DNA from: Anaerolineaceae bacterium
Lineage (GTDB): Bacteria; Chloroflexota; Anaerolineae; Aggregatilineales; Phototrophicaceae
Reading direction: 5' to 3'
DNA: 64,000 bases
Assembly (NCBI GenBank): GCA_016124855.1
Contig: WGMX01000019.1
Location: 1 to 64,000, forward strand
Below the pieces are notes generated by a model that did not search any database, was not told where the DNA came from, and saw only the letters and a program-made list of their open reading frames with translations. The position numbers and the translations under genes were made by a program. Below are positions 6,213 through 27,320 of this stretch, one piece after another; positions within the stretch are counted from its first letter, which is position 1; the number at the start of each line of letters is the position of its first letter.

Positions 6213-6252
6213 GCCCCTCCCTGTGTTTTGGGGAGGGGTTGGGGTGGGGTAT
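6213..6252 (+). repeat. G-rich dispersed intergenic repeat, copy 3
   Basis: Reads CCCCTCCCTGTGTTTTGGGG and then GAGGGGTTGGGGTGGGG. It is the closest match to the copy at 7655-7702. Confidence 0.7.
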
Positions 6253-7654: not shown

Positions 7655-7702
7655 TTTTCTCCCCTCCCTGTGTTTTGGCGAGGGGCTGGGGGTGGGGTAT
7701 AT
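7655..7702 (+). repeat. G-rich dispersed intergenic repeat, copy 4
   Basis: Reads TTTTCTCCCCTCCCTGTG, then GAGGGGCTGGGGGTGGGG. It lies just beyond the stop of the convergent DUF4203-like gene. Confidence 0.7.
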
Positions 7703-12387: not shown

Positions 12388-13325
12388 GGTCTGCGAGGGC
12401 GCCAGCGAGGGCTGTCATAGATACCGGCACGATGAGTTATGGGCTGAGGCGTACAGTTGTCATGCTGTTGCAGGCAGGCAGCAACATCCAGACGTAAGAT
12501 GCTGTTGTTACTGAAGTTGCTCAATGGTGCGTAGATGATGTAGCGATTGTCTTGTGACCAGCTCAGGCTGCGCATGTTGAGTACATCGGGGGCGAACAAC
12601 AGCACCGACTGCTTGAGTGTCGAATCCCACAGATACATGCCCGGATTGGAGTCGTAAGCGACATACAGCAAGTAACGTCCGTCAGGCGACCACGTTGGGT
12701 TAAGCTGAATGATGTGGTTCGCGATTAAAGGATTGGTATCGCCTGTTTGAATATTCACATCGTAGATAATGCGGTTTGGGCTGCCGGTTGCGCCAGAGGT
12801 AAAGGCGAGGTGTTGGCTGTCCGGTGTCCACGTCGGGCTGATGGCATTCGGATATTGGATGGTCATACGGCGCGTCAAACCCGACTGCAAATCGGTCAGC
12901 AGGACCTCGGTGATTTGCTGCGCGAATTCTTGCCGCGCGGTCACGTAAGCAATCGAGCGGTCGTCCGGTGACCATGTAGGGCTAAAGTTGTTGCGTGGAC
13001 TGTCGGTAAGCGGGTGAATACCGCGACCGGACGCGTCCATCACGAAGATGGTATATTGCCCTTGATGGTTGCTCACAAATGCGATTTGCTGCCCATCGGA
13101 TGACCAAGCCGGTTGGTTGTCTTCAGTTGAGTTGCGGGTTAATGAGACCGAGAGCTGGCGGTCAAGCGCCATCCGGTAAATTTCAGAATCAGCATTATCT
13201 AAACTGGCTGAATAGATGATTTCATCTTCTTGCGGCAGCGTTCGACCTACCGCCAGCGCCAGCAGTGTTAAACATCCGCACACGAGGATAACGGTACTCC
13301 ATAACCGGAGCAAATCGCGTATCAC
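12384..13325 (-). CDS. membrane-anchored PD40 beta-propeller, array member 3
   Basis: 313 residues, closest in layout to member 7. The helix (about 11-27) leads into GRTLPQEDEIIYSA. Blade tryptophans are at 74, 118, 166, 212 and 256, with variants WSSDG, WSPDD, WTPDS and WSQDN around one canonical WSPDG. The cysteine pair is C284-x6-C291. The end reads RWRPRRP. Both ends overlap neighbours by ATGA. Confidence 0.85.
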   Translation of the reverse strand: MIRDLLRLWSTVILVCGCLTLLALAVGRTLPQEDEIIYSASLDNADSEIYRMALDRQLSVSLTRNSTEDNQPAWSSDGQQIAFVSNHQGQYTIFVMDASGRGIHPLTDSPRNNFSPTWSPDDRSIAYVTARQEFAQQITEVLLTDLQSGLTRRMTIQYPNAISPTWTPDSQHLAFTSGATGSPNRIIYDVNIQTGDTNPLIANHIIQLNPTWSPDGRYLLYVAYDSNPGMYLWDSTLKQSVLLFAPDVLNMRSLSWSQDNRYIIYAPLSNFSNNSILRLDVAACLQQHDNCTPQPITHRAGIYDSPRWRPRRP

Positions 13326-14416
13326 GGTGCCGTCGGCCTCCAGCGTGCAGACGAGATTTGCCCGCCCATGTGGGTGATCTGCCGTACCGTACCCTCCGTG
13401 ACTGATAGCAGGAAAAGTTCTTGGCTGTTGGAGTCATTTGAAAGCAGCATGATCTGATGACCATCCGGCGAAAACGATGGGTATAGACTATAGGATAGCG
13501 CATTTTTTAATGGCTTGGCACAGTCCTTCAACGCACTCTCACATTGGACATCAGCCGTGTAGATTTGCGGTTGGCTGCTGCGATTCGATTGGAACAAGAG
13601 GCGTTGATTGTCGGGCGACCAAACCGGATACCAATCGGTGAACGGGCTGCGCGTCAGATTATAGGCGCTGTCAGCACAAGTATCGGATCGGGCAAGGCAC
13701 TCGCTTGGAACCAGCAGCAAATCCCCGTTTGCAAAATAAGCCAACTGCTTGCTATCCGGCGACCATGCTGGAAGGCTGTTAAATCCCCCGCCTAACCGGT
13801 GTATCGCGGATGGACAAGTTGCGATTTGCCGTAAACAGTCCATATTCATCACATACACTTCAAGGAATCCGCTGCGGTCGGAATAAAATGCCAGCATACG
13901 CCCGTCTGGTGACCAAACTGGAAAACTGTCGGAGGCTGAATCGTGTGTCAGATTATAAGCTGCGCCGCCCGTAGTCGGCATCCAGTAAAGTTCGGGTGCG
14001 CCGTTTCGTTCGCTGACGAAGACGATGCTGCGTCCATCCGGTGACCAGACCGGTTCGCCATCACTGGCACTGTTTTGGGTGAGGTTTACAGATTTGCCGC
14101 ACACCGAGAACAGTGAAGTGCATTCAACATCCAGCCGAAAGACATCCGAATGGCCGTTGACCGTCGCTACATAAGCCAGTTGTTTGCCATCTGGTGACCA
14201 ACTCATGCTCGGATATGGGTTTGCGCCGCGCGCCAGTTGGAAACTGAGATGGTGGTCAATGTCGAGCAGAAATAGGCTGCGAGTTGTGCCTTGCCCGAAT
14301 TGAAAACTGATCTCAGGGGAAGCGGGTAATATTCGTCCCAGTGTCAAGACCAATGCTATGCCCACGCTGTTTACCATTAGTAGAACAAAAAAGACGGCGC
14401 GCCATAGACGGGTCAT
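13322..14416 (-). CDS. membrane-anchored PD40 beta-propeller, array member 2, Cys-rich
   Basis: 364 residues, the longest of the array. After the helix and GRILPASPEISF come six blades, most with intact WSPDG. Unlike its siblings it has four separate C-x6-C pairs, one after each of several blades (CTSLFSVC, CLRQIATC, CLARSDTC, CESALKDC), each following a strand ending in LDV, MNMD or similar. This suggests that the pair is a unit of the blade and has been lost elsewhere. It starts ten bases after the stop of member 1 and ends in an ATGA overlap with member 3. Confidence 0.85.
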   Translation of the reverse strand: MTRLWRAVFFVLLMVNSVGIALVLTLGRILPASPEISFQFGQGTTRSLFLLDIDHHLSFQLARGANPYPSMSWSPDGKQLAYVATVNGHSDVFRLDVECTSLFSVCGKSVNLTQNSASDGEPVWSPDGRSIVFVSERNGAPELYWMPTTGGAAYNLTHDSASDSFPVWSPDGRMLAFYSDRSGFLEVYVMNMDCLRQIATCPSAIHRLGGGFNSLPAWSPDSKQLAYFANGDLLLVPSECLARSDTCADSAYNLTRSPFTDWYPVWSPDNQRLLFQSNRSSQPQIYTADVQCESALKDCAKPLKNALSYSLYPSFSPDGHQIMLLSNDSNSQELFLLSVTEGTVRQITHMGGQISSARWRPTAP

Positions 14417-14426
14417 CGTTTTGGGT

Positions 14427-15389
14427 TTAATTGGTGATGTCGCGCAGTGGACTCATGAGGTTGTAGATCATGCGTGGTTGGCAGCCTTCGGACAGCGAAA
14501 AGCAGTCAGCCTGTACCGCATAAATACCCTGTTGATTACGAACAAGGTCCCATGCTCGAAAGTACACCTCATGGGTATCGAGCGACCAGAGGATAAAAAA
14601 GGGCACAATCGGATTATTAAGGTGAAGGCGCTGCGGTGTCTGTGAACTGCATTGAGGCCGGGCCGTTTGCAGACACTCCCCGTCTAAAGTATAGATTTCG
14701 TATGCACCTAAGCGATCCGATAGAAAAGCGATTTTCGACATGTCGGGTGACCAAATAGGGCTGGTATCATCGACCAGTTCATCCGTGATTTGGAGCATTT
14801 CGCGGTCACAGCGCATCCGGCAGTTGGCCTCCACGACAAATAAATTCTGGAGATCATCACGGTAGCGGCTGGCGGCAAATATCAATTGCTGTCCATCCGA
14901 TGACCACGATGGGTTGTTATAAACGCCTGCCTTGACGATAGTTTGCACTGTCGAATCACCATCGGCGGAAATCGTATAGATGCCGCGTTTGTTATCCCGT
15001 TCGAATCCGACGAACACGATTTGACGACCATCCGGTGACCATGCCGGACTATTGCCACCCATTGTCTCGGGTGTAAGCTGTTGATAATCACCAGCATAGA
15101 GATTACCGATAAAAATATGAATTTGGCGGTTGCTAGACATGCTAAATGCAATGTGCTGCTGATCCGGTGACACCGCCGCATCGAAGATTACGCCGGGGTA
15201 AGCCCGTAGGCTGGCGCCGATATGACGGCTGCTGTCAATTAACAAAATGGCCGAACTGTTATAGGTGACAACCGGAATGATCTGCTCCAATGGTATGAGC
15301 TTGCCCACGACCTGCATCAGCAAGACGAGCAAAATAATAATGATGGTTAGCAGCGCGCTCAGGCGTGGCAGCAGGCTGAACATGGGCAA
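14427..15389 (-). CDS. membrane-anchored PD40 beta-propeller, array member 1 (first)
   Basis: 320 residues. The N-terminal helix (about 11-32) is followed by a more divergent lead strand. The first blade is reduced to VSPDQQHIAF; later blades read WSPDGRQIVFV, WSSDGQQLIFA and WSPDMSKIAFL. Three cysteine pairs are present with spacings x3, x7 and x6. The RWRP end is missing. No ribosome binding site is visible. It opens the operon, divergent from the sortase gene, so its promoter should lie in the 81 bases between them. Confidence 0.83.
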   Translation of the reverse strand: MPMFSLLPRLSALLTIIIILLVLLMQVVGKLIPLEQIIPVVTYNSSAILLIDSSRHIGASLRAYPGVIFDAAVSPDQQHIAFSMSSNRQIHIFIGNLYAGDYQQLTPETMGGNSPAWSPDGRQIVFVGFERDNKRGIYTISADGDSTVQTIVKAGVYNNPSWSSDGQQLIFAASRYRDDLQNLFVVEANCRMRCDREMLQITDELVDDTSPIWSPDMSKIAFLSDRLGAYEIYTLDGECLQTARPQCSSQTPQRLHLNNPIVPFFILWSLDTHEVYFRAWDLVRNQQGIYAVQADCFSLSEGCQPRMIYNLMSPLRDITN

Positions 15390-15470: not shown

Positions 15471-16130
15471 ATGTCACGCAGTCGATTGCCTTCAAGTCGT
15501 GGTAAGTCTAATTCTCTCATCTTTCGCCTGATTCTCTTGGGCATCGTTTTAGGTGCAGGATTTTTGGTGATTCAACGTTTTCGTCACCCACCTGAAGCCG
15601 CTGCCCCTGAATTTGCGGCTTTGCCGACGCTGACACCCAGCCTCATTCCCACCGAATCGCCGACCGCTGTGCCCATTCCAACCAATACCGCTTATCCGCG
15701 TGCCAATATCAATGCCCCAACTGTTGGAATCAACGCCGACATTGTCGATGTCTATTTAGATGGTCAAAGTTGGGACGTGACCCAGCTTGGAAATAACGTG
15801 GGTCATTTGCAGGGAACGGGCTGGTTTGGCAAGACAGGCAACATCGGCCTTGCCGGACATGTCGAACTAGCCGATGGACGGGTAGGTATTTTCCGCAATA
15901 TCGAGAAAATGGCAAAAGGTGATCCTATTACCTTAACGCTCGGCGATTTGAAACAGGACTATCGAGTTACCGAGGTGAAGCGTACGAACCCCACCGATTT
16001 GACCATTCTTGAGCCATCCACGGTGGATACCATTACCCTCATCACCTGTGATATTGGCGCGTATAACCTGCTGCAAAACACCTATCAGGATCGGATAGTG
16101 GTGGTCGCACAACGGGTGCAGTCCTCATAA
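15471..16130 (+). CDS. sortase
   Basis: A transpeptidase that attaches or cross-links surface proteins outside the membrane. 219 residues: an N-terminal membrane helix (about 16-34), a Pro/Thr-rich stalk, and a catalytic domain with H130 (GLAGHVE), C193 (TLITCD) and R208 (YQDRIVVVA), the complete sortase triad. The stop overlaps the next start (TAATG). No protein with a plain LPxTG sorting signal was found in this window, so its substrates are elsewhere or carry a different motif. Class cannot be fixed by eye; class E or F-like is most likely. Confidence 0.9.
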   Translation: MSRSRLPSSRGKSNSLIFRLILLGIVLGAGFLVIQRFRHPPEAAAPEFAALPTLTPSLIPTESPTAVPIPTNTAYPRANINAPTVGINADIVDVYLDGQSWDVTQLGNNVGHLQGTGWFGKTGNIGLAGHVELADGRVGIFRNIEKMAKGDPITLTLGDLKQDYRVTEVKRTNPTDLTILEPSTVDTITLITCDIGAYNLLQNTYQDRIVVVAQRVQSS

Positions 16131-16765
16131 TGACCGGACTGCGCGGCTGGTTGCTCGACCGTTTGTGGTATGTCCAGCCCATGACGGCGCTGACTGTCAA
16201 AGCGCTGCCCAACGACTGTTCGCGTACTTTGGCGCTGGCAACCCGCCCGAATCTGGATCGTTTGCATTTACGAAACTTGTTCATTGACGGTCGTCGTTAT
16301 TATGTGAGTGTTCTCAACGATGGCTTCGAAATGACGACTCATTCCAGCCTGCCGTGGCGACCCAAAACGCGGGGTTCAATTGCGGCGGTTCTGCGCGGGA
16401 CATTTAGCGCGGCGGGTAATGACAGCACCGTTATTCGGATGCAAGCACGTATGCGGCTTCTTTATCTACTGAATATTTTCCCTATCCCCTTGTTTATGAC
16501 AGCCTTGCTCATCGCCTCGCCGTGGTCAAAAACTTTAGTCATCGGTTTGATAATCGGCCTGTTCTTTCTCTCTTGGGCGGGGCATCGCTTAACTGCCTCA
16601 TTGCAAGCGGCTGATATGGTTTATTTCGTCGAGAAAGTATTGGAAGAAGTCATCACAACCGATACCCCGCTGCTCAGCTCCAACAACGAGTCAGTCGTCA
16701 CCCCTGAGCAGGACTTCCCCAAACAGTGGCAAAAATTTTACGAAGAACATAAAGGCGAATCGTAA
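16130..16765 (+). CDS. two-helix membrane protein of unknown function
   Basis: 211 residues. The N-terminal 110 residues are soluble and mixed alpha/beta (RYYVSVLNDGFEMTTHS). Two adjacent helices (about 113-150) follow, then a soluble tail ending in FPKQWQKFYEEHKGES. It overlaps the sortase by one base and is probably co-translated with it, so a role in the same surface process is plausible. Its last 62 bases recur almost exactly at 18664-18725, beyond the inserted hydrolase gene. Confidence 0.75.
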   Translation: MTGLRGWLLDRLWYVQPMTALTVKALPNDCSRTLALATRPNLDRLHLRNLFIDGRRYYVSVLNDGFEMTTHSSLPWRPKTRGSIAAVLRGTFSAAGNDSTVIRMQARMRLLYLLNIFPIPLFMTALLIASPWSKTLVIGLIIGLFFLSWAGHRLTASLQAADMVYFVEKVLEEVITTDTPLLSSNNESVVTPEQDFPKQWQKFYEEHKGES

Positions 16766-16766
16766 A
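16705..16766 (+). repeat. 62-base direct repeat, copy 1 (3' end of upstream gene)
   Basis: Covers the last codons and stop of the preceding gene. It matches 18664-18725 with four substitutions and no gaps. The two copies flank the hydrolase gene. Confidence 0.9.
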
Positions 16767-16934
16767 CTCCGTCGCAAGCACAATTTAGGCTATTCAAACG
16801 TCATATGGGAAACATGATATTCGTCGCTTGGATTTTTTATCGCGCCACTCTAGGATGAAAGTGGCGTAATAGCGCCTTTAAAAGATTTGATGACTCGCTG
16901 CTCTTAACATTCTATCCACTCAATACTGTAAAGC

Positions 16935-16978
16935 AGAGGCATATCCATTGTGGCGGGTTATGCCTCTTTTTATTTTTT
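16935..16978 (+). terminator. rho-independent terminator
   Basis: Perfect 9-base stem AGAGGCATA / TATGCCTCT, followed by TTTTTATTTTTT. It lies upstream of the hydrolase start and would end transcription from the sortase operon. Confidence 0.8.
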
Positions 16979-16997
16979 AGTGAAAGGGATGACACTA

Positions 16998-18545
16998 ATG
17001 AAGCGCAAGTTAAGATTACTTATTGTCGTTTTAGTCTTCCTATTTATGATTTCGCTGATACCACCAATGGTTGCGCGAGATTCTACCGCCATCCCTTGGC
17101 CCACCGAAGGTTGGGAGACCTCAACCCCGGAAGAGCAAGGGGTTAACTCGGAAGCGTTGACCACATTGTTGCAATCCAACACCGAAGTTCACACCATCAT
17201 GGCAATCCGACACGGTAAAGTGATTTTAGATGTTTCGCGCTATCCCTTTACAAGCAGTCAACCTCATGCCTTGTTTTCGGTGACCAAGAGTTTTGTTTCC
17301 ACGCTTGTAGGTATTGCCATCGACAAGGGTTATATCAAGAGTATCGATCAGTCTATTTGGGATTTCTTTCCCAAAGACAAGACGGCTAACATGGATGCTC
17401 GCAAAGAGGCCATCACTCTTGAAGATTTGTTGACACAGCGATCAGGAATCTCGTTTGACGATCTTAGTATCTATAAAATCGCAGATAAGAATGTAACTTG
17501 GGCGCAATTTATACTCGATCAACCTATGGTGAGTGAGCCGGGTATAAACTCTTTGCTTCTAGATGCAAATACTCATTTAGCTTCCGCCATCCTTCAGATT
17601 TCGACCAAGATGAGCACAGCCGACTTTGCCATGAAGTTCTTGTTTGCGCCACTGGGTATTACTGATGCCACATGGATAGCTGATCCACAAGGGGTTAGCC
17701 AAGGAGGCGACCACTTGTATATGAGTCCTGCGAGTATGGCTAAGCTGGGCTATCTGTACTTGCATGGTGGCGAGTGGGATGGACAACAAATCGTGTCATC
17801 TGATTGGATTACCCTTGTTACCAGTACGGTAACCAAAGGTAACACACAAGACTACGGTTACTCATGGTGGACAAGCTCGATTTCCGGGACCAATCATCAG
17901 GTTTATGCAGCGCTTGGTTTACATGGGCAGGCGATTTGGGTCGTGCCAGATTCAGATCTCGTTGTAGTAACCACTAACGACTCCGCTGCGGAAGGTCAGA
18001 CGATTATTAATGCAATTGCTAATGCATCCACATCTGATCAACCATTAGCACCTAATCCTGTAGCACTGAAGGCGCTGCAAACGAGACTTGGCGAGCTAGC
18101 TCATCCAAAGGCCATTGCGGTTAAACCCATTCCAGATGCAATGAAGGCTGTTTCTGGCAAGGTCTATCAGTTCCAACCCAACGATTTCGGTTGGAAATCT
18201 ATTGCTATTGACTTCACAAAAACTGATGAGGTCATGATAACGTTAGGTCTATCAGACAAAGAGATCAAACTGCCAGTAGGCATGGATAGTGTCTATCGAG
18301 TATCGACTGATGGTTTACCCGCTGAACCCATGTGGCGGCCTATCGCTAATGTGCCACTGATGTTGAGGGCTGGTTTTCTGGGTAAACGTTTTATTGTTTA
18401 CATGAGTGATTGTATGGGCATGGAGTTCTGGACACTGAATTTTGACTTTAGCAAGGATGTATCCAAGTTGTGGATAGTCGCTCAGTCGTTGAATGAGAGT
18501 TATGACGTAAGCTTTATAACCCACGATTTGGTAGGTTCATCCTAA
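16998..18545 (+). CDS. secreted class C beta-lactamase-like serine hydrolase
   Basis: 515 residues. A signal peptide or anchor (about 5-25) precedes a beta-lactamase/PBP4-type domain: SVTK at 94-97 provides the S-x-x-K nucleophile motif, YGYSWW fits the Y-x-N-like second motif, and LHGQAIWV the H-x-G third motif. A second domain of about 130 residues follows. The start at 16998 has GAAAGGG nine bases upstream; the open frame reaches 16950. The gene sits in a segment bounded by direct repeats of the upstream gene's 3' end and looks more AT-rich in third positions than its neighbours, suggesting acquisition. Esterase, peptidase or penicillin-binding activity cannot be told apart. Confidence 0.82.
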   Translation: MKRKLRLLIVVLVFLFMISLIPPMVARDSTAIPWPTEGWETSTPEEQGVNSEALTTLLQSNTEVHTIMAIRHGKVILDVSRYPFTSSQPHALFSVTKSFVSTLVGIAIDKGYIKSIDQSIWDFFPKDKTANMDARKEAITLEDLLTQRSGISFDDLSIYKIADKNVTWAQFILDQPMVSEPGINSLLLDANTHLASAILQISTKMSTADFAMKFLFAPLGITDATWIADPQGVSQGGDHLYMSPASMAKLGYLYLHGGEWDGQQIVSSDWITLVTSTVTKGNTQDYGYSWWTSSISGTNHQVYAALGLHGQAIWVVPDSDLVVVTTNDSAAEGQTIINAIANASTSDQPLAPNPVALKALQTRLGELAHPKAIAVKPIPDAMKAVSGKVYQFQPNDFGWKSIAIDFTKTDEVMITLGLSDKEIKLPVGMDSVYRVSTDGLPAEPMWRPIANVPLMLRAGFLGKRFIVYMSDCMGMEFWTLNFDFSKDVSKLWIVAQSLNESYDVSFITHDLVGSS

Positions 18546-18582
18546 GTTTGTGCGATATGCTTTCTGTACCTATAACCCAGAA

Positions 18583-18610
18583 CCCAGCGTCGAGTTCCCT
18601 TGACGCTGGG
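18583..18610. repeat. hairpin downstream of serine hydrolase
   Basis: Perfect arms CCCAGCGTC and GACGCTGGG with a 10-base loop. No T-run follows, so termination activity is uncertain. Confidence 0.5.
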
Positions 18611-18663
18611 CTGGAAAATCATTAACCTTTGGTACTCGGCTCCCGTGTGTTAAGTACCTCACA

Positions 18664-18725
18664 TGAGCGAGACTTCCCCAAACAGTGGCAAAAATTTTAC
18701 GAAGAACATAAAGGTGAGTCGTAAA
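18664..18725 (+). repeat. 62-base direct repeat, copy 2
   Basis: Second copy of the 3' end of the 16130-16765 gene. It still reads RDFPKQWQKFYEEHKGES and stop in frame; three of the four substitutions are silent (GGC/GGT, GAA/GAG and a change at the boundary codon), one gives Q to R. No start codon is attached, so it is an orphan gene end. Confidence 0.88.
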
Positions 18726-18728
18726 TTG

Positions 18729-20573
18729 CTAGGGCGCACTAATCGTCACCGTTCCTAGCGTTTGAGTATCGGCGCTTGAGCCATCCGCTGCGCTGCTCAT
18801 CAACCGCTCGCCCGTTTGCCAATTATAAACAGCCGCCTGTATGTGATAATCACCAGCAGGTAAATTCGCGGCGTTCAAATCAATCGCTTGGCAGGATAGT
18901 CCCCCAGCCGGTAAACCAGCATCATATTGAGCATGAACTTGATTGCTCGAATCCATCAGATATAAACCCACCGAGTACGTATTCGCGGGAACTTGTGGGT
19001 CAATATGATACCCCAACCACACCTCTACTAAACCGTCTTTGATGTGAGGTCTACCCGACATCGAGAGATGAACACCATCCCCAAATTGCCATGCTTGCCC
19101 ATTTGGATCGACACGCCCGAATCCCCAAATTCGCATGTCTAGTGTGTTGGCGAGTGTGGCGCAGTGGTACATGTGCTGTTCGTTCATGACATATTCAAAT
19201 AAACTCCATTCGTCGGTCGTCCAACGCGGATCATGCAGCAGCCAAACCCGCTCAGCAGTACCAACAATCTGCCGTAGTCGATCAGCAAAAATTTGTACAC
19301 CGGGGTGAAACGTGTTTTCCAGCACTTCGATTCGTGCGCCGAAGTCGCCCATGTAATACACCAGCGAATGTGCCGCTAAAGTTGAACGGTCTTCATCCCC
19401 AATCAGGTTGATGATGACATCATCCTTCGCGACTTCCGGCTTAAGCACCTGCGCCATCTCACGGATAGGTTGTGGAGGCCAGTGTTGGATGATGCGATCC
19501 ATCTGAAAGCTGCCTTCTAGCGGGATAATGCCTGCTGCCCATACCGTGACAATCAACAGCGGTGGGATACGCCGTTTCGCCAGTTCATCCAGCCCGAAAC
19601 CCGCTAGCAGCGCTAAGAAAGGCAGCAGCGCCATGTTGTACCGCAGTTCCGGCAGTCCAAAGACGTAATAAGCTGCAAGGTTTAGCACGAACAGAACTAC
19701 CCCTAACACCCAGACCCATCGTACCGGACGTGCCAGCCAACTGAAGGCCAACAGTACAATCAGAACAGCGACACTTGTATTGCTAAAAGCGGTAAATGTA
19801 TCACTGCTGATTCGCACCAGCAGCGCCAAATCCGACGCGACACGCTGCTGATTATGGGTTAAGGTCGCCGCCTTTTGGATATTGATGAGTGACGGAATCA
19901 AGGCAAGTGCAGCAATAACCCATGTGCCGATTACGCCCCACCAACGCCGATCTAACCGCTTTCTCGGGAACTGTACTACATGCCACAAGCCAACCACAGC
20001 CAGCGGCAGCACCGCGAAATAATGGCTGTTGACCAGCAGCCCGCTAATCAATGTCAAAGCGACATAACTCCACCAACGCGGTTCGTGTTTGCCGTACATA
20101 ATGCGTCTATAGAGTAACAGCATTAGTGCCGTAAACATCACCAGAATCATGTACACCCGCATCTCGTGTAGGAAGTAGATATACCACACACTTGTACCGA
20201 GAAGTGTCGCCGCTCCTAATCCCACCAGCGGACGTTTCGAGATGCTCCAACCCAAACGGAAAACACCCGCGATGCCGATCAATCCAGCTAAAAGGGATAA
20301 AGCGCGGGTAGCAAATTCCGTCCACCCGACGAGGCTTCCCCATCCAGCAAGGCTAAAGGCATACAGCGGCGCTTGCCACATATCCTCGGTTGAAATGCGC
20401 TGCCAGATGTCACCGACCGAGCGCGAGATATGAAAGGTGTCCGCGCCCGCGATGTACAGCGAAAACCACTCGTCGTACCAGATGCCGTCGGCATTCAATT
20501 TGCGTGCGCCCAACCACATCACCAGCAGCAGCACGGCGATGATGCCCAGCCAATATTTTGCGGATAACTTCAT
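18729..20573 (-). CDS. GT39-like membrane glycosyltransferase
   Basis: 614 residues. Multi-pass membrane protein of the ArnT/PMT (GT-C) kind: after the first helix comes DGIWYDEWFS, with the acidic DE in the first extracytoplasmic loop that is characteristic of the fold. About ten further helices follow to roughly residue 370, then a soluble C-terminal domain of about 240 residues. Such enzymes transfer sugars from lipid-linked donors to proteins or lipids on the outer face. The start has AAGG eight bases upstream. It is convergent with the two-helix membrane-protein gene, whose orphan 3' end lies four bases away. Confidence 0.82.
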   Translation of the reverse strand: MKLSAKYWLGIIAVLLLVMWLGARKLNADGIWYDEWFSLYIAGADTFHISRSVGDIWQRISTEDMWQAPLYAFSLAGWGSLVGWTEFATRALSLLAGLIGIAGVFRLGWSISKRPLVGLGAATLLGTSVWYIYFLHEMRVYMILVMFTALMLLLYRRIMYGKHEPRWWSYVALTLISGLLVNSHYFAVLPLAVVGLWHVVQFPRKRLDRRWWGVIGTWVIAALALIPSLINIQKAATLTHNQQRVASDLALLVRISSDTFTAFSNTSVAVLIVLLAFSWLARPVRWVWVLGVVLFVLNLAAYYVFGLPELRYNMALLPFLALLAGFGLDELAKRRIPPLLIVTVWAAGIIPLEGSFQMDRIIQHWPPQPIREMAQVLKPEVAKDDVIINLIGDEDRSTLAAHSLVYYMGDFGARIEVLENTFHPGVQIFADRLRQIVGTAERVWLLHDPRWTTDEWSLFEYVMNEQHMYHCATLANTLDMRIWGFGRVDPNGQAWQFGDGVHLSMSGRPHIKDGLVEVWLGYHIDPQVPANTYSVGLYLMDSSNQVHAQYDAGLPAGGLSCQAIDLNAANLPAGDYHIQAAVYNWQTGERLMSSAADGSSADTQTLGTVTISAP

Positions 20574-20713
20574 TCGATGAACCTTATGAATCCATAATGC
20601 CGGCTATTCTAAGCGCTGCGGTTCATCAAGTGAAGTGGATGAAATATGAGAGGTTTGCCCGGTGGTTGATCTCGATTAGTACCATGCGCATGTTGAACAG
20701 GGCTTTATTCGTC

Positions 20714-20738
20714 TGCCGGAGGGGGTTATCCTCCGGCA
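20714..20738. terminator. intergenic hairpin between two minus-strand genes
   Basis: Perfect 9-base stem TGCCGGAGG / CCTCCGGCA with a 7-base loop, downstream of the acyl-CoA synthetase gene. There is no strong T-run on either strand. Confidence 0.5.
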
Positions 20739-20769
20739 AATCTTGAATGAGGGTTAGGGTGTGGGAAAT

Positions 20770-22395
20770 TTATGCCCGTTCCGGCAGCGCGTAATCCTTA
20801 TACTGTTCGCGAATGACTTTCTTATCAAATTTGCCCACGCTGGTTTTAGGAATCGACTCGACGAACAAAATATCGTTCGGAAGTTGCCACTTGGCGAAGT
20901 GCGGAGCGATATGCGCGTAAATGCTTTCTTTGCTCGGCGGCTCAGCGTTCGGACGCGGCACAACCAGCGCTAATGGGCGCTCCTGCCACTTGGGATGAGG
21001 CACAGCGATCACAGTCGCCTCCAATACGCCGGGATGCCCCATAATGGCGCTTTCCAATTCAACGGTCGAAATCCACTCGCCGCCGCTTTTCACAAGGTCT
21101 TTGGTACGGTCAACAATTTGGATGTAACCTTCCTCGTCAATCGTCACCACATCGCCAGTACGGAACCAACCGCCTTCGAATCGCCCGACTGAACGGTCAT
21201 CGTTGTAATAGTTAGAGGCCACCCACGGCCCGCGTACTTGCAGTTCGCCCATGGCTTTGCCATCCCACTGCACTTCCTTGCCCGCTTCGTCCACTGCCCT
21301 TAATTCGACGCAAGGTGAGGGGATTCCCTGCTTGGCGCGGATATGATATTGCTCTTCTTCTGGCAGATCAAACATTTCCCGTTTGAGATTGCAGACTGTG
21401 CCGAGTGGGCTGGTTTCCGTCATACCCCACGCATGAACAACCCGTACATTATGTTTCTTCTGGAAACCTTCAATCAGGGATTGCGGCGCGGCTGACCCGC
21501 CGACCACCATTGAACGCAAGCTGGAAAGATCATAGCGTTCGCTTTCCAATAGATTCAGGATGCCCAACCACAGTGTCGGTACGCCGCCGGTAATCGTTAT
21601 TTTTTCGGCTTGAATCAGTTCCACCAGATCGCGCGGAGTCATATGCGGGCCGGGGAACACTTGGACTGCGCCAAGCATGGTCGCGGCGTAAGGCAGTCCC
21701 CATGCCAGCACATGGAACATGGGCACGACCGGCATCATAATGTCGCTGGAGGTTAAGCCTAAGCCATCGCCAAAACAGACGCTCATGGCGTGCAGATAAC
21801 AGGAGCGGTGCGAATAAAGCACACCTTTGGGGTCGCCGGTTGTGCCGGAGGTATAACACATCGCGGCAGCCGTGTTTTCCGGCAGATCAGGCCAGTTGTA
21901 TTCTGTTGGTTCGGCGGCAAGCAGTTCTTCATAACTCAATGCATTAGGCAGTGATGTTTGCAGCGGCGTATTCGTCATCACCACAAAGTGTTCAACCGTT
22001 TTCAGATGCGCAGCGATTTTTTCGAGCAAAGGCAGCAGTGTTTGATCGACAAAAATCACTTTATCGGCGGCGTGATTAATAATATAAATCAGTTGATCAG
22101 GCGGAAGGCGCAGGTTCAGTGTATGACATACCGCTCCCATACAGGGTATGCCAAAATATAGTTCAAGATGACGGTAAGTGTTCCATGCCAGTGTACCCAC
22201 CCTGTCACCAGCTTTTACGCCCAGTTTTTCCAGCGCGTGTGCCAACTGTCCTGTGCGTTGATACAAATCGGCGTAAGTGTAGCGGTGCATCGCTGGCCCT
22301 ACTTTGGTGACGATCTCCCGCTTAGGAAATAACTTATAAGCACGCTCCAAAATCGGGCGGAGCGTCAGTTGGTAATCCATCATAAGACCTTGCAT
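20770..22395 (-). CDS. medium/long-chain fatty acyl-CoA synthetase
   Basis: Activates fatty acids to acyl-CoA through an acyl-adenylate. 541 residues, the normal length for AlkK/FadD-like enzymes. Visible motifs: the ATP-binding P-loop YTSGTTGDPKGVLYSHRS, the AWGMTETSPLG motif, and the GWFRTGDVVTIDEEGYIQIVDRTKDLVKSGGEW hinge in the C-terminal third (quoted in parts: FRTGDV, DRTKDLVKSGGEW). The catalytic Lys lies near the C-terminus in KTSVGKFDKK. The start at 22395 has AGGAGA seven bases upstream, better than the internal Met pair. It is divergent from the MOSC gene. Confidence 0.92.
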   Translation of the reverse strand: MQGLMMDYQLTLRPILERAYKLFPKREIVTKVGPAMHRYTYADLYQRTGQLAHALEKLGVKAGDRVGTLAWNTYRHLELYFGIPCMGAVCHTLNLRLPPDQLIYIINHAADKVIFVDQTLLPLLEKIAAHLKTVEHFVVMTNTPLQTSLPNALSYEELLAAEPTEYNWPDLPENTAAAMCYTSGTTGDPKGVLYSHRSCYLHAMSVCFGDGLGLTSSDIMMPVVPMFHVLAWGLPYAATMLGAVQVFPGPHMTPRDLVELIQAEKITITGGVPTLWLGILNLLESERYDLSSLRSMVVGGSAAPQSLIEGFQKKHNVRVVHAWGMTETSPLGTVCNLKREMFDLPEEEQYHIRAKQGIPSPCVELRAVDEAGKEVQWDGKAMGELQVRGPWVASNYYNDDRSVGRFEGGWFRTGDVVTIDEEGYIQIVDRTKDLVKSGGEWISTVELESAIMGHPGVLEATVIAVPHPKWQERPLALVVPRPNAEPPSKESIYAHIAPHFAKWQLPNDILFVESIPKTSVGKFDKKVIREQYKDYALPERA

Positions 22396-22568
22396 TATTT
22401 TTCTCCTGAAATCTATTTAAATGAGTGAGACTATTTTTAAGAAGGGGTGTTCCGTTGTGGGCTTGCCTCCAATGCTTTGCCAAGCGCATGTTGCTTCCGA
22501 ATTGTACCACTTTAAGCCGTTACGCTAGAAAAGCATTTCGTAGGTGTTTATAATCTGTAGGAAATAGT

Positions 22569-23057
22569 ATGGAGCATAACCCCATGACCCAAATTGCCAG
22601 CATTGTTTATACGCCTATTGGACAGCAGGAACCGGAAAACGATTATCTGCGTGTTGATTTGGACGACGCGAATTTGATCGCGGGGCATGGCCTCGAAGGG
22701 GACTCTCATGCAGGCCATAACCCTGACCGTCAGTTGAATATCATGTCCTATGAAACCTTGACCAACTTACGTGTGCAGGGCTTTTACACCGAACCGGGGC
22801 AGATGGGCGAACAAATCGTTATCCACCAGTTAGATGTTGATAATTTACCTGCCGGAGCGCGGGTGCAGCTTGGCAAAGATGCCATTATCGAAGTCGTCAA
22901 GCCGCGTACGGGCTGCGAAAAATTCGAGCGGATTCAGAAAAAATCGCGGCAGCTTGTGCAGGGGCAAATGGGTGTAATGGCGCGCGTGATTACCAGCGGC
23001 AAAATCAGTGTGGGTGATCCCGTACGTGTCCTCAAAGATACACCGGTTAGCCAGTAA
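22569..23057 (+). CDS. MOSC-domain protein
   Basis: 162 residues, a single MOSC domain. IAGHGLEGDSHAGH, PGQMGEQIVI and VVKPRTGCEKF match the family pattern, including the conserved Cys that can carry sulfur or bind a metal-sulfur cofactor. MOSC proteins act in molybdenum-cofactor sulfuration or in detoxification of N-hydroxylated compounds. There is no YiiM-type fusion. AGGA precedes the start. It begins a short operon with the dehydrogenase five bases downstream. Confidence 0.87.
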   Translation: MEHNPMTQIASIVYTPIGQQEPENDYLRVDLDDANLIAGHGLEGDSHAGHNPDRQLNIMSYETLTNLRVQGFYTEPGQMGEQIVIHQLDVDNLPAGARVQLGKDAIIEVVKPRTGCEKFERIQKKSRQLVQGQMGVMARVITSGKISVGDPVRVLKDTPVSQ

Positions 23058-23062
23058 ACATC

Positions 23063-23920
23063 ATGAGCCAAACCATCGGCATCTTACATCCCGGCGCGAT
23101 GGGAGCTTCAATTGCGGCTTCCGCCCAAAACAGCGGTAACACCGTTTATTGGGCATCGCAGGGTCGCAGCCCACAAACGGCTGAACGTGCGGTACGTTCA
23201 AATCTCCGTGATGCGGGTTCGCTCGCGGCATTGTGCCAAACCTGTTCGGTTATATTGAGTGTATGTCCGCCTGCCGCTGCCGAAGCTCAAGCTGATGATG
23301 TTCTTGCTTTGGGTTTCAAAGGCTTATATGTCGATATGAATGCCATCGCCCCGCAGCGTGTGATGCGAATTGCTGAGAAGATGCGCTTACATGGGACTCG
23401 CTTTGTCAGCGGCTCGATTATCGGTGGGCCAGCGTGGCAGCCCAACGTCACTTGGCTTTATCTTTCCGGTGAAGAAGCCCAAGCCGCCGCCGATTTGTTT
23501 AGTGCCGGTCCGCTCGAAACCGCCGTGCTAGGCGATGACATCACTAAAGCCTCTGCCCTCAAAATGTGTTTCGCCGCGTATACCAAAGGCACAACCGCTT
23601 TACTGGGCGCGGTGATGGCGGCTGCCGAAGCCCTGAACGTCCGCGACGATTTGGAACGCCAGTGGTCGCGTAACGGCTCGAAATTTGCCGAAGAATCGGC
23701 GCGCAATGTCCAGCAGGTGACAGCCAAAGCGTGGCGCTTCTCCGGTGAGATGGAAGAAATCGCCGCCACCTTGAGCAGTGCTGGCTTGCCTGATGGCTTC
23801 CACCTCGCAGCGGCGGATATTTACGAACGTATGGCAGCCTTTAAAGGGGCTGATCCACTGCCATCACTTGACGATATTCTTACGGCCTTAACCAAGAAGG
23901 CCACTTCTAATGACAAATAG
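23063..23920 (+). CDS. NAD(P)-binding dehydrogenase with DUF1932 domain
   Basis: 285 residues. An N-terminal Rossmann fold of the 6-phosphogluconate/3-hydroxyisobutyrate dehydrogenase type begins ILHPGAMGASIAASAQ. The C-terminal helical domain (about 185-260) corresponds to DUF1932, with the KMCFAAYTKGTTALLGAV helix at the junction. A reductase acting on a small hydroxy acid is likely; the substrate is unknown. It follows the MOSC gene by five bases. Confidence 0.83.
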   Translation: MSQTIGILHPGAMGASIAASAQNSGNTVYWASQGRSPQTAERAVRSNLRDAGSLAALCQTCSVILSVCPPAAAEAQADDVLALGFKGLYVDMNAIAPQRVMRIAEKMRLHGTRFVSGSIIGGPAWQPNVTWLYLSGEEAQAAADLFSAGPLETAVLGDDITKASALKMCFAAYTKGTTALLGAVMAAAEALNVRDDLERQWSRNGSKFAEESARNVQQVTAKAWRFSGEMEEIAATLSSAGLPDGFHLAAADIYERMAAFKGADPLPSLDDILTALTKKATSNDK

Positions 23921-23940
23921 CCAACGACTACCGACTAATC

Positions 23941-24222
23941 ATGTCTGAATACGTAACTGTTGAAACCCAAACCACCGATAACCCCGATGTATTAGAGTTC
24001 ATCACCAACCAAAAAATCGCTTTGGAAGGGGATGAAGTTTACGAGAACTTTGAGCAGGGCGATGTGGGTTCGCCCATCGCCCAGATGTTATTCAATGGTG
24101 TTCGTGGTATCCAAGCCTTGACCATTAGCGGCGGTGATTTGCTCATCACCCGTGACCCCGTTGTGCCGTGGGAAGAAATCATCGACGAAGTCCGTGATGC
24201 CCTCCGCGATTTCTTCCTGTAA
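23941..24222 (+). CDS. Nfu N-terminal-domain protein
   Basis: 93 residues, matching the Nfu_N (scaffold N-terminal) domain: ETQTTDNPDVLEFITNQ, DVGSPIAQMLF and GGDLLITRD. The C-terminal CxxC domain that carries the Fe-S cluster in full Nfu proteins is absent, as in many stand-alone members. It may help Fe-S protein assembly. The last 15 codons are partly repeated at 25846-25875, beyond the AT-rich island. Confidence 0.87.
   Translation: MSEYVTVETQTTDNPDVLEFITNQKIALEGDEVYENFEQGDVGSPIAQMLFNGVRGIQALTISGGDLLITRDPVVPWEEIIDEVRDALRDFFL
24176..24222 (+). repeat. direct repeat at nfu 3' end, copy 1
   Basis: Covers the last codons and stop of the Nfu_N gene. Bases 24176-24194 and 24207-24217 match 25846-25875; the 12 bases between are absent from the second copy. 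Confidence 0.85.
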
Positions 24223-24272
24223 TCTTGATATAATAATTTTATATTTTTAGCTGACGTGTGAAGGCCATTTGA

Positions 24273-24779
24273 GTGGTATTGTTATCCGACCCTTCAAGAA
24301 AAAATGTTATTCGTACTAGGTCGGGAACTGAAATTCCGTGTGCAAGCTATTTATCATTTGAATTAGCAAAGATGCAATTAAACGCTCAAGAAATTTTGCG
24401 GTGGCGACCTAGAGCTAAGCTACGTTCAATTGATATGTATCCTTATAATTGCGTTGGAATGATTTTTGCCGCTCGTAGAGCATGGATAGAAATAGACTAT
24501 ATTTATGACTTGCTCAACGGAGACGGTTTTAGACAAATTAAAGAAGATGAGGTCATTTCTGGAGATTTAATTTTATATATCGACGCTAATAATGAGCCAG
24601 CACATATAGGACTTATAATTGCTGTAGATTCCATTGGTAAAACAAAAAATATACTTGTCATGAGCAAATGGGGTAAAGACGCGGAGTTTATACATTTCGT
24701 AGACGATGTTCCGCAACAAATGGGTAAACCGACGAAATTTTATACAGATAGAAAAGAACATGATTACATCTCTGCATGA
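24273..24779 (+). CDS. island gene A: NlpC/P60-like putative cysteine hydrolase
   Basis: 168 residues from a GTG start with AAGG eight bases upstream; an ATG at 24372 is an alternative. The pattern NCVGMIFAARRAW (C60), GDLILYIDANNEPAHIGLI (H111) and a following SKWG resembles the Cys-His layout of NlpC/P60-type papain-like hydrolases, with D98 in the usual GDL turn. No signal peptide is seen, so it would act in the cytoplasm or be delivered by another route. Codon use is strikingly AT-rich compared with neighbours. It overlaps gene B by 20 bases. The family assignment is tentative. Confidence 0.6.
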   Translation: MVLLSDPSRKNVIRTRSGTEIPCASYLSFELAKMQLNAQEILRWRPRAKLRSIDMYPYNCVGMIFAARRAWIEIDYIYDLLNGDGFRQIKEDEVISGDLILYIDANNEPAHIGLIIAVDSIGKTKNILVMSKWGKDAEFIHFVDDVPQQMGKPTKFYTDRKEHDYISA

Positions 24780-25335
24780 GCTTATAAACATCATCGAAAG
24801 TGTCAATTTTGATGCCAATATGAGCGTATTTAGTGGTTTTAATAGTTTTCACAGAGCGTTAGTGGGAAATCAAACGATCCAAGAGCTTAGAGAAGTATTA
24901 ACTGATTTTCCAAATGCGGCTGAAGAGTTGTACGACCATTTTATAAGTTTGATACAACAGGATACTCAATCACAGTATGAGCATCCTCATGATATAGCTA
25001 TATCAAGCTACTTATTCGCGTTATCAACTTCATCAAATAATGGCATGGCTCTTGAGGCCGCAAAAGAGATTACGTTGATTCCGAACTTGATTTGGGCGAA
25101 ACGACTTGCTGAAATAATTTTAGCAAATCAAACCGCTACTGCTGAAACTGAAGTGAAAGTGCCCGAAGCTAGTAAATACAGTTTTACGAAATCGAACTAT
25201 TTTGTCATTGTCGGTGGGTTACAAATAAGTATTAATTCTAGGGTGTCAGAATCTAGCACTACGTTGACGAAAACGACAAATTTATACAAATTAAATCCGC
25301 GTTCTAAGTCCATTCGCCTTATTATGAGTGCTTAA
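24760..25335 (+). CDS. island gene B: unknown helical protein with beta C-terminus
   Basis: 191 residues from the ATG at 24760, which overlaps the end of gene A; the open frame reaches 24706. The N-terminal two thirds look all-helical (SLHELINIIESVNF, EHPHDIAISSYLFAL, LIWAKRLAEIIL). The C-terminal 50 residues look beta-rich (KSNYFVIVGGLQISINS). No family is recognised. The overlap with A suggests paired function, for example effector and inhibitor, which is inference only. AT-rich like A and C. Confidence 0.6.
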   Translation: MITSLHELINIIESVNFDANMSVFSGFNSFHRALVGNQTIQELREVLTDFPNAAEELYDHFISLIQQDTQSQYEHPHDIAISSYLFALSTSSNNGMALEAAKEITLIPNLIWAKRLAEIILANQTATAETEVKVPEASKYSFTKSNYFVIVGGLQISINSRVSESSTTLTKTTNLYKLNPRSKSIRLIMSA

Positions 25336-25352
25336 ATAAAGGATATTTTCGA

Positions 25353-25796
25353 ATGGAACACGTATGGTCAGTTCTTTGTCGACTGCAAATAACGGATAAA
25401 GATCGAAATAGTATAAGCCTTATAGAAACCACTGATCAAATTAATTTTTTTGCTGAGGAAAACGTAAATGTAGAAGGTATACCTGCTCAGTTAGTAATCG
25501 TATCGATGTGGTGGCGATCACACAGTAATGAGCCTGAAATGGGTTATCAACGTATGCTAATTTCTTCGCCGAAAGGTGAGGTAATGGTAACCTCATCTGA
25601 ATTGGAAATTGATTTGATAACAAGTGGGCGAGCACGAATCATAATCAACGTTGATGGATTGCCATTCACAGGCGATGGAATTTACAGATTTATTATTCAA
25701 TATTCTATCGCTAATAGTGGCAATTGGGTTGATGCTGCCTCAGTACCATTAATGATAGTTCGAGATGCTGTATCACGTTTTACTAATGAAGGTTAA
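25353..25796 (+). CDS. island gene C: small beta-sandwich-like protein
   Basis: 147 residues, starting 17 bases after gene B. The opening WSVLCRLQITDKDRNSISLI, a middle LVIVSMWWRS and a late DGIYRFIIQY resemble DUF6941-type proteins, which are small and of unknown role; this is a weak recollection, not a search result. No signal peptide. It has the same AT-rich codon use as A and B, and is followed within 50 bases by the second copy of the nfu 3' end. Confidence 0.58.
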   Translation: MEHVWSVLCRLQITDKDRNSISLIETTDQINFFAEENVNVEGIPAQLVIVSMWWRSHSNEPEMGYQRMLISSPKGEVMVTSSELEIDLITSGRARIIINVDGLPFTGDGIYRFIIQYSIANSGNWVDAASVPLMIVRDAVSRFTNEG

Positions 25797-25845
25797 CTAC
25801 TTTCGAGCCTAGTTCTGCCCCATAAGATTTTAATATTCTTCAATA

Positions 25846-25875
25846 AAATCATCGACGAAGTCCGCGATTTCTTCT
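25846..25875 (+). repeat. direct repeat of nfu 3' end, copy 2
   Basis: Reads AAATCATCGACGAAGTCCG then CGATTTCTTCT. In frame it gives IIDEVRDFFL, the end of the Nfu_N protein minus four residues, with a silent Leu change and no stop codon. It lies 27 bases before the sulfatase start. Confidence 0.82.
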
Positions 25876-25901
25876 TATCACCATTCTGGAAAGTTCACCC
25901 A

Positions 25902-27320
25902 ATGTCTAATCAGCCCAATCTCATCTTTGTATTTGCTGATCAATTACGCTATCAATCCGTTGGCTTTGCTGGCGATACAAAAGCCCGCACACCGCGGCTG
26001 GATCAACTGGCAGCCGAGTCGACCAACTGTATCAATACAACCGCTGTATCGCCCGTTTGTGCGGCTTATCGAGCTTCACTGGTGACGGGCAAATACTCCA
26101 GCAGCACCGGCATGGTCATTAACGAACTCCGCATCAATCCCAACCATGACGCGATTGCCAAAGTGCTGCACCGCAGCAGCTACGACACTTACTACATCGG
26201 CAAATGGCATTTGTGGGCCAATCAACTCGGTAATCATACCGATCCCAATAACTCCTTCACCCCACCCGGCCCTTATCGTTTGGGCTTCGATGGTTATTGG
26301 GCGGCTTATAATTTCCATCACATGAACTATGAAGGCTACTATCACCTCAATAGTCCTGAGAAAGTTGTCATCGACGGTTATGAGCCGGACGCGCAAACCG
26401 CCCTTGCTATAGAGAAGCTGCGTATCGCCAAATCCAATAATCAACCATTCGCCATGTTCTTATCCTATGGCATTCCGCATGACCCTTGGGATACCAGCAA
26501 CGTACCGCAAGAATATTGGCAGCGATTTGAAGGTGTTGACTTCCCGTTGCCGCCCAATTACAAACCCGAAAACGATCCTCATGCCGATGATTGGGCGAAA
26601 CTCGATGATTCCGAACGCGCCCAGCTTTCCAGTTGGATGCGCGGCTATTACGCAATGGTCGCCAGCTTGGATGATAATGTCGGTCGGTTGCTGGACGCGA
26701 TAACCGATCTGGGTCTTAAGGACGATACCATTTTCGTGTTTACATCCGATCACGGCGAAATGTTTGGTTCACAAGGCAGACGTGCCAAGAACATTTTTTA
26801 TGACGAGGCCGCCCACGTTCCATTTCTGATTCGCTATCCTGATCATATTCCCGCTGGTGCGAAATCTGATATATGCCTGAACACGCCCGACATCGCGCCA
26901 ACCCTCTTATCGCTGTTGAATCTTCCCGTTCCCCCAGAAATGGAAGGTTCGGATTTAAGCGCACATTTGCTTGGAAAAAAGTGGGCTGAACCGGAAGCGG
27001 CTTATTTGCAAGGCATGGGCTGCACCGCCCAATGGATCGACGGCTACGAATGGCGGGCGCTTCGCAGCAAGCAGTTCACCTATGCCATCTATCTCGCCGA
27101 TCATCAAGAACTGCTATTCGATAATCTAGCCGATCCCTATCAAATGCGAAACCTCGTCAATGAACCTGAATATGCCGGTACCTTGCAGCACTTCCGTAAC
27201 TTGTTGAAAGACAAAATGACGGAACTTAACGACACCTTCGAGACATGTACATGGTATCGTGACCACTGGACAGAAGATCGTATTATTCTCCGTACTGCGA
27301 CCCTCAATCCAACCATCTAG
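25902..27320 (+). CDS. sulfatase
   Basis: 472 residues, cytoplasmic by the lack of a signal peptide. Metal-binding D13 lies in FVFADQLR. The formylglycine motif is C53-A-A-Y-R57-ASLVTG: the proline of the common C-x-P-x-R form is replaced by alanine. The C-x-A-x-R form is known to be handled by radical-SAM anaerobic sulfatase-maturating enzymes. FTSDHGEMFG provides further metal ligands. The family hydrolyses sulfate (or sometimes phosphonate) esters; substrate unknown. No maturase is in the window. It directly follows the AT-rich island. Confidence 0.9.
   Translation: MSNQPNLIFVFADQLRYQSVGFAGDTKARTPRLDQLAAESTNCINTTAVSPVCAAYRASLVTGKYSSSTGMVINELRINPNHDAIAKVLHRSSYDTYYIGKWHLWANQLGNHTDPNNSFTPPGPYRLGFDGYWAAYNFHHMNYEGYYHLNSPEKVVIDGYEPDAQTALAIEKLRIAKSNNQPFAMFLSYGIPHDPWDTSNVPQEYWQRFEGVDFPLPPNYKPENDPHADDWAKLDDSERAQLSSWMRGYYAMVASLDDNVGRLLDAITDLGLKDDTIFVFTSDHGEMFGSQGRRAKNIFYDEAAHVPFLIRYPDHIPAGAKSDICLNTPDIAPTLLSLLNLPVPPEMEGSDLSAHLLGKKWAEPEAAYLQGMGCTAQWIDGYEWRALRSKQFTYAIYLADHQELLFDNLADPYQMRNLVNEPEYAGTLQHFRNLLKDKMTELNDTFETCTWYRDHWTEDRIILRTATLNPTI

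Follow-up and report, generated by a model that had tools for sequence, protein, structure and literature searches.

Cis-mobilizable elements (CIMEs) are islands without a recombinase that lie between attachment (att) sites and combine gene-end repeats with serial accretion. Dehalococcoides belongs to the same phylum as the genome studied here. Its islands at ssrA have been described (PMC3146451), and insertion with long target duplication (Nobusato et al. 2000) has been reported for restriction-modification genes of Helicobacter pylori (PMC3031569, PMC1643837). For the arrays of type VI secretion system (T6SS) immunity genes in Vibrio, the proposed model is homology-facilitated illegitimate recombination with displaced ends and serial accretion (PMC5361080). 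In Escherichia coli, Staphylococcus aureus and Streptococcus pyogenes, direct repeats stand at 10-18% of small variable segments, and 66-94% of the repeats bordering such segments in the three species are under 30 bp (PMC2884548). Here we describe two cassettes in a window of 64,000 nucleotides (bases 1-64000 of contig 13) from the draft genome of an Anaerolineaceae bacterium (handle G000; 7.09 Mb, 84 contigs, estimated contamination 9%). Each stands behind the stop codon of an intact host gene and has a second copy of that gene's 3′ end on its far side, and four further loci of G000 are built in the same way.

The G000 loci share features with each of these systems. Like the segments of the three species they are short and variable with direct repeats at their borders, though the repeats in G000 are longer (variable in length, from 35 to about 118 nt) and bounded by a gene end. 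As in the model for the Vibrio arrays, an incoming module would be anchored in common sequence, with a displaced 3′ end downstream and serial accretion; the Vibrio modules are effector/immunity modules with variable ends, whereas in G000 ordinary host genes keep an intact, equivalent 3′ end. Unlike CIMEs and the ssrA islands, the G000 loci revealed no common exact core in the blocks tested and no cognate integrase, and they occupy several unrelated target genes. Since the H. pylori, Vibrio T6SS and three-species reports describe such events, the kind of event treated below is known; here it recurs and is markedly confined to gene ends. The gene-end pattern was not found for Chloroflexota in the open-licence literature searched, which is not proof that it is unpublished.

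The first case concerns a gene that we call X, and its features in the window are as follows.

16130-16765, + strand: host gene X, 211 aa, intact, behind a sortase gene, no Pfam match
16705-16766, + strand: near copy of the gene X 3′ end, a sequence repeat
16767-18663, no strand: cassette 1, ~1.9 kb, GC 45%
16950-18545, + strand: cargo gene for a beta-lactamase-family serine hydrolase (PF00144)
18664-18725, + strand: far copy of the gene X 3′ end, 94% identical, stop codon kept
18729-20573, − strand: neighbouring gene for a membrane glycosyltransferase (PMT_2, by Pfam), convergent with X

The second case, some kilobases further on, is built around a gene for an Nfu_N domain protein.

23941-24222, + strand: host gene, Nfu_N domain protein (PF08712), intact
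24176-24222, + strand: near copy, the last 47 nt of the Nfu_N gene, a sequence repeat
24223-25845, no strand: cassette 2, ~1.6 kb, GC 36.5%; absent from this place in G015 and G009
24273-24779, + strand: cargo open reading frame (ORF), weak DUF7689 match under the curated cut-off
24706-25335, + strand: cargo ORF, no Pfam family
25353-25796, + strand: cargo ORF, DUF6941-like (E 5.9e-5, under the curated cut-off)
25846-25880, + strand: far copy of the Nfu_N 3′ end, 12 nt deleted, stop codon lost
25902-27320, + strand: old neighbour of the Nfu_N gene, a sulfatase by its look (no family search run)

An earlier note on this DNA had described two unrelated cassettes directly behind gene stop codons, each with a copy of the gene's 3′ end on its far side, and both are borne out. 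In the first, a block of 62 nt (16705-16766) has a 94% identical counterpart at 18664-18725, and the stop codon of the far copy lies 4 nt from that of the convergent glycosyltransferase gene. In the second, the last 47 nt of the Nfu_N gene recur as 35 nt, the 12-nt deletion being in frame; this repeat is weaker than the note implied, with 22 of 23 nt matching and the rest gapped. The statement that no recombinase is carried also holds, in that Pfam gave no recombinase family among the four cargo ORFs of the window. Both cassettes have a lower GC content than their host genes (45% against 52% for gene X; 36.5% against 49% for the Nfu_N gene), and the three ORFs of cassette 2 are small and AT-rich.

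For cassette 2 the event itself can be read from relatives. G003, G007, G009, G010 and G015 belong to the same genus as G000, and in two of them the homologue of 25902-27320 directly follows the Nfu_N gene, 155 nt (G015) or 22 nt (G009) behind its stop codon; cassette 2 is therefore an insertion. Since the far copy in the window lies 21 nt ahead of the next gene and the stop-to-gene distance in G009 is 22 nt, the far copy would most simply be the native 3′ end with a G009-like spacer.

Gene X and one cargo protein of each cassette were compared with 61 genomes, G000 included. Gene X has matches in 29 of them, and the sole named match found for its protein is one of 79% on a contig of an Anaerolineae bacterium bin (Chloroflexota). 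The serine hydrolase family of cassette 1 is widespread, with matches in 40 of the 61 genomes, and we infer that this member is not a true resistance gene. The cargo was also considered as a repeated mobile family, and this was rejected: the best-scoring match of the serine hydrolase elsewhere is 46% identical, and the protein of 24706-25335 has, besides itself, one distant match (32%). PADLOC assigned none of the four cargo proteins of the window to defence.

Relatives show other arrangements at the gene X locus. In G003 the glycosyltransferase is the next gene after X, beyond a 1.3 kb insert that holds no copy of X; this insert (L043 3660-4970) is unlike cassette 1 and by eye encodes a TPR-like repeat protein. 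In G015 only the tail of the glycosyltransferase gene adjoins X (~130 nt by protein match; at the DNA level 72 nt at 92%, C7:152408-152479), and the whole gene lies ~85 kb from X (C7:237054-238889). This tail is another gene-end relic, at the border of a large rearrangement, so that gene ends are also left at rearrangement borders.

The build recurs in G000. Reading was done in stretches, the window among them, that amount to 1.41 of the 7.09 Mb. The main scan covered 1105 genes, each 240 nt or longer and with 3 kb or more of sequence behind it; the final 75 nt of the gene, with 5 nt added, were aligned with its own downstream 6 kb at a score threshold of 17. Sixteen genes reached it. Ten are tandem or shared-domain pairs, recognised by alignment (C6:56532, C10:160566, C2:39943, C3:61663, C7:101677, C17:19682) or by reciprocal and extended matches (three C10 genes at 89.4-91.7 kb, C7:24192), and six, the window's two included, are orphan 3′-end copies with scores from 19.5 to 52. 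When the 1105 gene ends were randomly paired, three times over, with the downstream 6 kb of other genes, a single match scored 17 and none scored higher. The earlier note had proposed a common mechanism and a search for gene ends that recur downstream; the sample thus yields six cases with varied cargo (6 of 1105 genes, against one chance match in three shuffles), and a mechanism in common gains support accordingly. The four loci outside the window are these.

C60:49635-50387: short-chain dehydrogenase (SDR) gene, 37 nt copied
C60:80570-82237: HerA-domain gene, 57 nt copied at about 75%
C60:120813-121712: EamA transporter gene, 74-112 nt copied
C7:100230-100943: AraC-type regulator gene, a 20-nt exact block within a gapped 80-nt alignment

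At the SDR gene the cargo is a 101-aa protein without assigned family together with a PIN-domain protein (a VapBC-like pair), and it adjoins a gene for an MmeI-type restriction enzyme. The HerA cassette holds two small genes, one of them DUF7716, the EamA cassette an alpha/beta hydrolase and a methyltransferase, and the AraC cassette one gene, a hydrolase by its look (no family search). Cassette GC is below host-gene GC at four of the five loci measured, the exception being the EamA cassette. At five of the six loci the repeat block ends at the stop codon or at most 5 nt from it; the AraC alignment is the one that extends beyond the stop.

Control positions within genes bear on the preference for 3′ ends. 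In a separate pass by blastn, orphan copies within 8 kb numbered four for 3′ ends, three for 5′ ends and four for gene middles among 1097 genes. The four 3′ cases (X, SDR, EamA and AraC) are all direct, downstream and single, whereas on inspection two of the 5′ cases proved to be tandem genes and the third a contig-end repeat, and all four middle cases were dispersed repeats present as inverted copies. An earlier pass over 724 genes of G000 and 294 of G015, in which pairs with homology running into the gene were dropped, found seven downstream matches of 3′ ends in G000 (five orphans, two tandem genes) and none in G015. Upstream matches of 3′ ends numbered four (two in G000), those of 5′ ends one upstream and one downstream, and those of gene middles three downstream and five upstream. 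The control matches of this pass in G000 sit in tandem gene families; C10:84869, a gene-middle match, belongs to the same C10 gene family as the dropped genes at 89.4-91.7 kb, C7:56076 is a whole-gene relative, and the 5′-end matches C7:105428 and C17:4307 were excluded by the homology-extension test alone. As the 5′ and middle copies of the blastn pass resolve in this way, the 3′-end preference in the G000 sample is real, at small numbers; no clean 5′-end case was found in that sample, and one was found in G007.

The frequency of such scars was extrapolated from six in 1.41 Mb with the window's contig, or four in 1.28 Mb without it, to the total of 7.09 Mb, which suggests 20-30 in G000. In G015, none of 294 genes has a 3′-end copy within 6 kb (one repeat-family match lies within 8 kb), and an extra 383 kb of G000 gave the AraC case only; the rate therefore varies.

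Relatives were compared at the SDR, HerA and EamA loci as well. Empty sites are present at two of the six loci, Nfu_N (G015 and G009, above) and EamA (G003, G009 and G010), so that insertion is established at both. The gene that follows EamA, a metallo-hydrolase by eye (no family search), stands 252 nt (G003), 107 nt (G009) or 67 nt (G010) behind the EamA stop codon, against 3.3 kb in G000. Behind the EamA-end relic of G000 lies a second block, of 36% GC, with a gene for a TIR-domain protein (L125 17658-18725, contig 60, minus strand).

On the far side of both the HerA far copy and a methyltransferase gene, G000 has a gene whose G010 counterpart stands 69 nt behind HerA; the gene that adjoins the far copy in G000 was not found in the relatives. 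G009 has a 1.16 kb insert behind HerA, then a 92-118 nt copy of the HerA end, and beyond this a homologue (49% identical) of the gene directly behind HerA in G000, which is most simply a separate event at the same gene. Identity between the two G009 copies is 91%, against 65-75% between species across the same 92 nt, and some residues of the far copy are those of other species.

No empty SDR site was found among the relatives read. At the G003 site (contig 443; L199) the VapBC-like pair is related to that of G000 (contig 60; L095) and the far copy is longer, about 83 nt against 37 nt. In G003 the far copy is 92.5% identical to its own near copy over 67 nt, and the near copies of G003 and G000 are 83.6% identical; the repeats within G003 being more alike than the species' near copies, they were homogenised or the pair arrived twice, two possibilities that the 38 nt common to all four copies, with values of 84-92%, do not separate. 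A mirror image occurs in G007, where the first 75 nt of uvrC, counted from the ATG, are found again 0.75 kb upstream at 93% (contig 374, L048; 9466-9540 and 10219-10293); a DUF4926 gene lies between the two copies and a DUF2283 gene just before them.

The differences between copies, which are 73-95% alike, carry information on their origin. We counted them by codon in eight pairs, namely five of G000 (the gapped AraC pair being left out and Nfu_N entering with its first 20 nt only), G009 HerA, G003 SDR and G007 uvrC. The 55 differences fall 11, 10 and 34 at codon positions 1, 2 and 3, and the changed codons comprise 23 synonymous and 20 non-synonymous; in the G000 HerA pair, the last seven codons differ synonymously only. 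The third-position excess has p 1.4e-5 against one third and p 0.027 against 0.48, the value estimated for one free and one constrained copy. Because it exceeds both models, a large share of the differences probably dates from a time when both copies were functional genes, each in its own lineage. The copies thus look more like diverged alleles than decayed duplicates, a direction in which their sequences point, not decisively.

Our preferred explanation, to which we assign a probability of roughly 60%, is that the cassettes entered by homology-anchored acquisition of donor DNA, which left the recipient's 3′ end behind as a relic. Such an event stands near both insertion with long target duplication and homology-facilitated illegitimate recombination. 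In the donor, a member of a related lineage, the foreign genes would already have stood behind an allele of the same host gene. Donor and chromosome would be joined by recombination anchored in the common coding sequence of the gene end, through one crossover or through homology-facilitated illegitimate recombination, in which the other side is closed by a non-homologous join; in the latter route the host gene would be the common sequence on one side. The gene would stay whole because the donor supplies its 3′ end, and the recipient's own 3′ end would remain as a relic before the old neighbour, to be shortened and to decay later. As intergenic DNA differs from lineage to lineage, homology would mostly go no further than the stop codon. 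Gene ends would survive as sites by selection, neither neighbour being broken there, and recombination between the copies could excise a cassette scarlessly.

This acquisition of donor DNA would account for the intact genes, the Nfu_N spacing, homology that stops with the coding sequence, allele-like differences, the mirror case at uvrC and varied cargo free of recombinases. It would also account for serial accretion, seen in G009 as HerA, cassette, HerA end and then the homologue of the gene directly behind HerA in G000, and in G000 as EamA, two genes, EamA end and then the low-GC TIR gene. On the uptake of donor DNA, a Competence-family match in G000 says little; the same family matches in 10 of 14 control genomes.

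Several observations weigh against it. All copies lie within about 120 nt of the gene end in genes of 282 to 1671 nt, and a uniform landing place would give such confinement with p about 1.5e-6 (seven cases); relics must therefore have been trimmed, or the homology in use is a short one. The two lengths of the SDR far copy suggest trimming at that one site, and short homology as the working substrate is also possible. Neither for cassette 1 nor for cassette 2 was a donor arrangement found, no clean empty site for the X/glycosyltransferase locus was found in the relatives compared, and the one case of native spacing of the far copy is Nfu_N in comparison with G009. Set against the half-constrained model, the third-position excess is a modest one; some of the pairs are not independent of each other, and uvrC shows the opposite tendency, with three of four changed codons non-synonymous.

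The main rival, which we consider unlikely, is strict insertion with long target duplication, in which 40-120 bases of the recipient's gene end were duplicated by the insertion process, with decay of the far copy afterwards. The anatomy is that published for H. pylori (PMC3031569, PMC1643837): there too gene blocks with long, variable direct target duplications were found by genome comparison. The far copies at Nfu_N and uvrC show decay, and one of the six cargoes, the VapBC-like pair beside the MmeI-type gene, is of the classic sort and fits the restriction-modification/toxin-antitoxin theme. Among the six cargoes that PIN-domain pair is the one case of this sort found; four others gave other families or none (the AraC cargo had no family search), and most cargoes are of other than restriction-modification type. 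The G000 copies are, moreover, mostly bounded by gene ends and allele-like: random duplication gives no reason for blocks to end at or within 5 nt of the stop at five of six loci. Against the rival stand also the 34 of 55 differences at third positions and the purely synonymous change in the last seven HerA codons of G000.

A bolder reading, which we think quite unlikely, would be a process that needs no more than ~40-120 bases of gene-end homology and regularly adds and removes small cassettes behind ordinary genes in the genus, at 20-30 per genome when extrapolated from the sample, with the conserved gene end as the address. This length is the working range of phage single-strand annealing proteins.

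Of the two routes offered in the earlier note, recombination between homologous flanks fits better, and a cassette system mobilised in trans fares less well. Two findings qualify the note's reading: uvrC in a relative is a mirror-image case at a 5′ end, and at AraC, one of the six loci, the alignment continues beyond the stop. Site-specific integration by a tyrosine recombinase acting in trans, as in recombinase-less islands between attL and attR, would explain the position at gene 3′ ends, the reconstituted gene and the serial accretion behind HerA and EamA. Against it, no exact 7-mer is common to three or more repeat blocks (7- to 10-mers, seven blocks with AraC excluded; degenerate motifs not tested), block lengths range from 35 to about 118 nt, and the copies are no more than 73-95% alike. 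The 7.09 Mb of G000 have four Phage_integrase (tyrosine recombinase) matches, on contigs 21, 22 and 75 and none on contigs 7, 13 or 60, and no integrase was found among the cargo proteins searched, the AraC cargo having had no family search. We rate such integration as very unlikely; a distant enzyme may conceivably act in trans. A dedicated cassette system is not supported.

Slightly less probable again is that a gene was duplicated in tandem along with its neighbours and that deletions then removed all of the second copy but its end. Tandem and shared-domain pairs are common, making up 10 of the 16 scoring pairs, but relatives lack the cargo at Nfu_N and EamA, the window cargo has no second copy nearby, and cassette GC falls below that of the host gene everywhere it was measured except EamA. 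We give least credence to a metagenome assembly or binning artefact that joined the alleles of two strains: the draft's contamination estimate and the resemblance of the copies to strain alleles would suit it, but the pattern is present in several assemblies (G000, G003, G009 and G007), the SDR-vapBC arrangement returns in G003, and the Nfu_N far copy has a deletion and has lost its stop codon.

Elsewhere in the window, 8620-15389 holds a tandem array of seven related genes that look like WD40-type beta-propellers (no family search run), and the counterparts of this array vary in number and similarity among relatives. Repeats of ~40 nt at 6214-6252 and 7661-7700 occur elsewhere in G000 too, for example on contigs 2, 9, 13 and 60, and these scattered repeats are mostly intergenic.

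Bacteria constantly gain small blocks of genes, and their entry without a transposase or integrase is mostly a matter of inference. Relic gene ends are a countable footprint of this process: they mark the insertion and tell its polarity and how far the donor had diverged. The process can therefore be surveyed by computer in any set of genomes.

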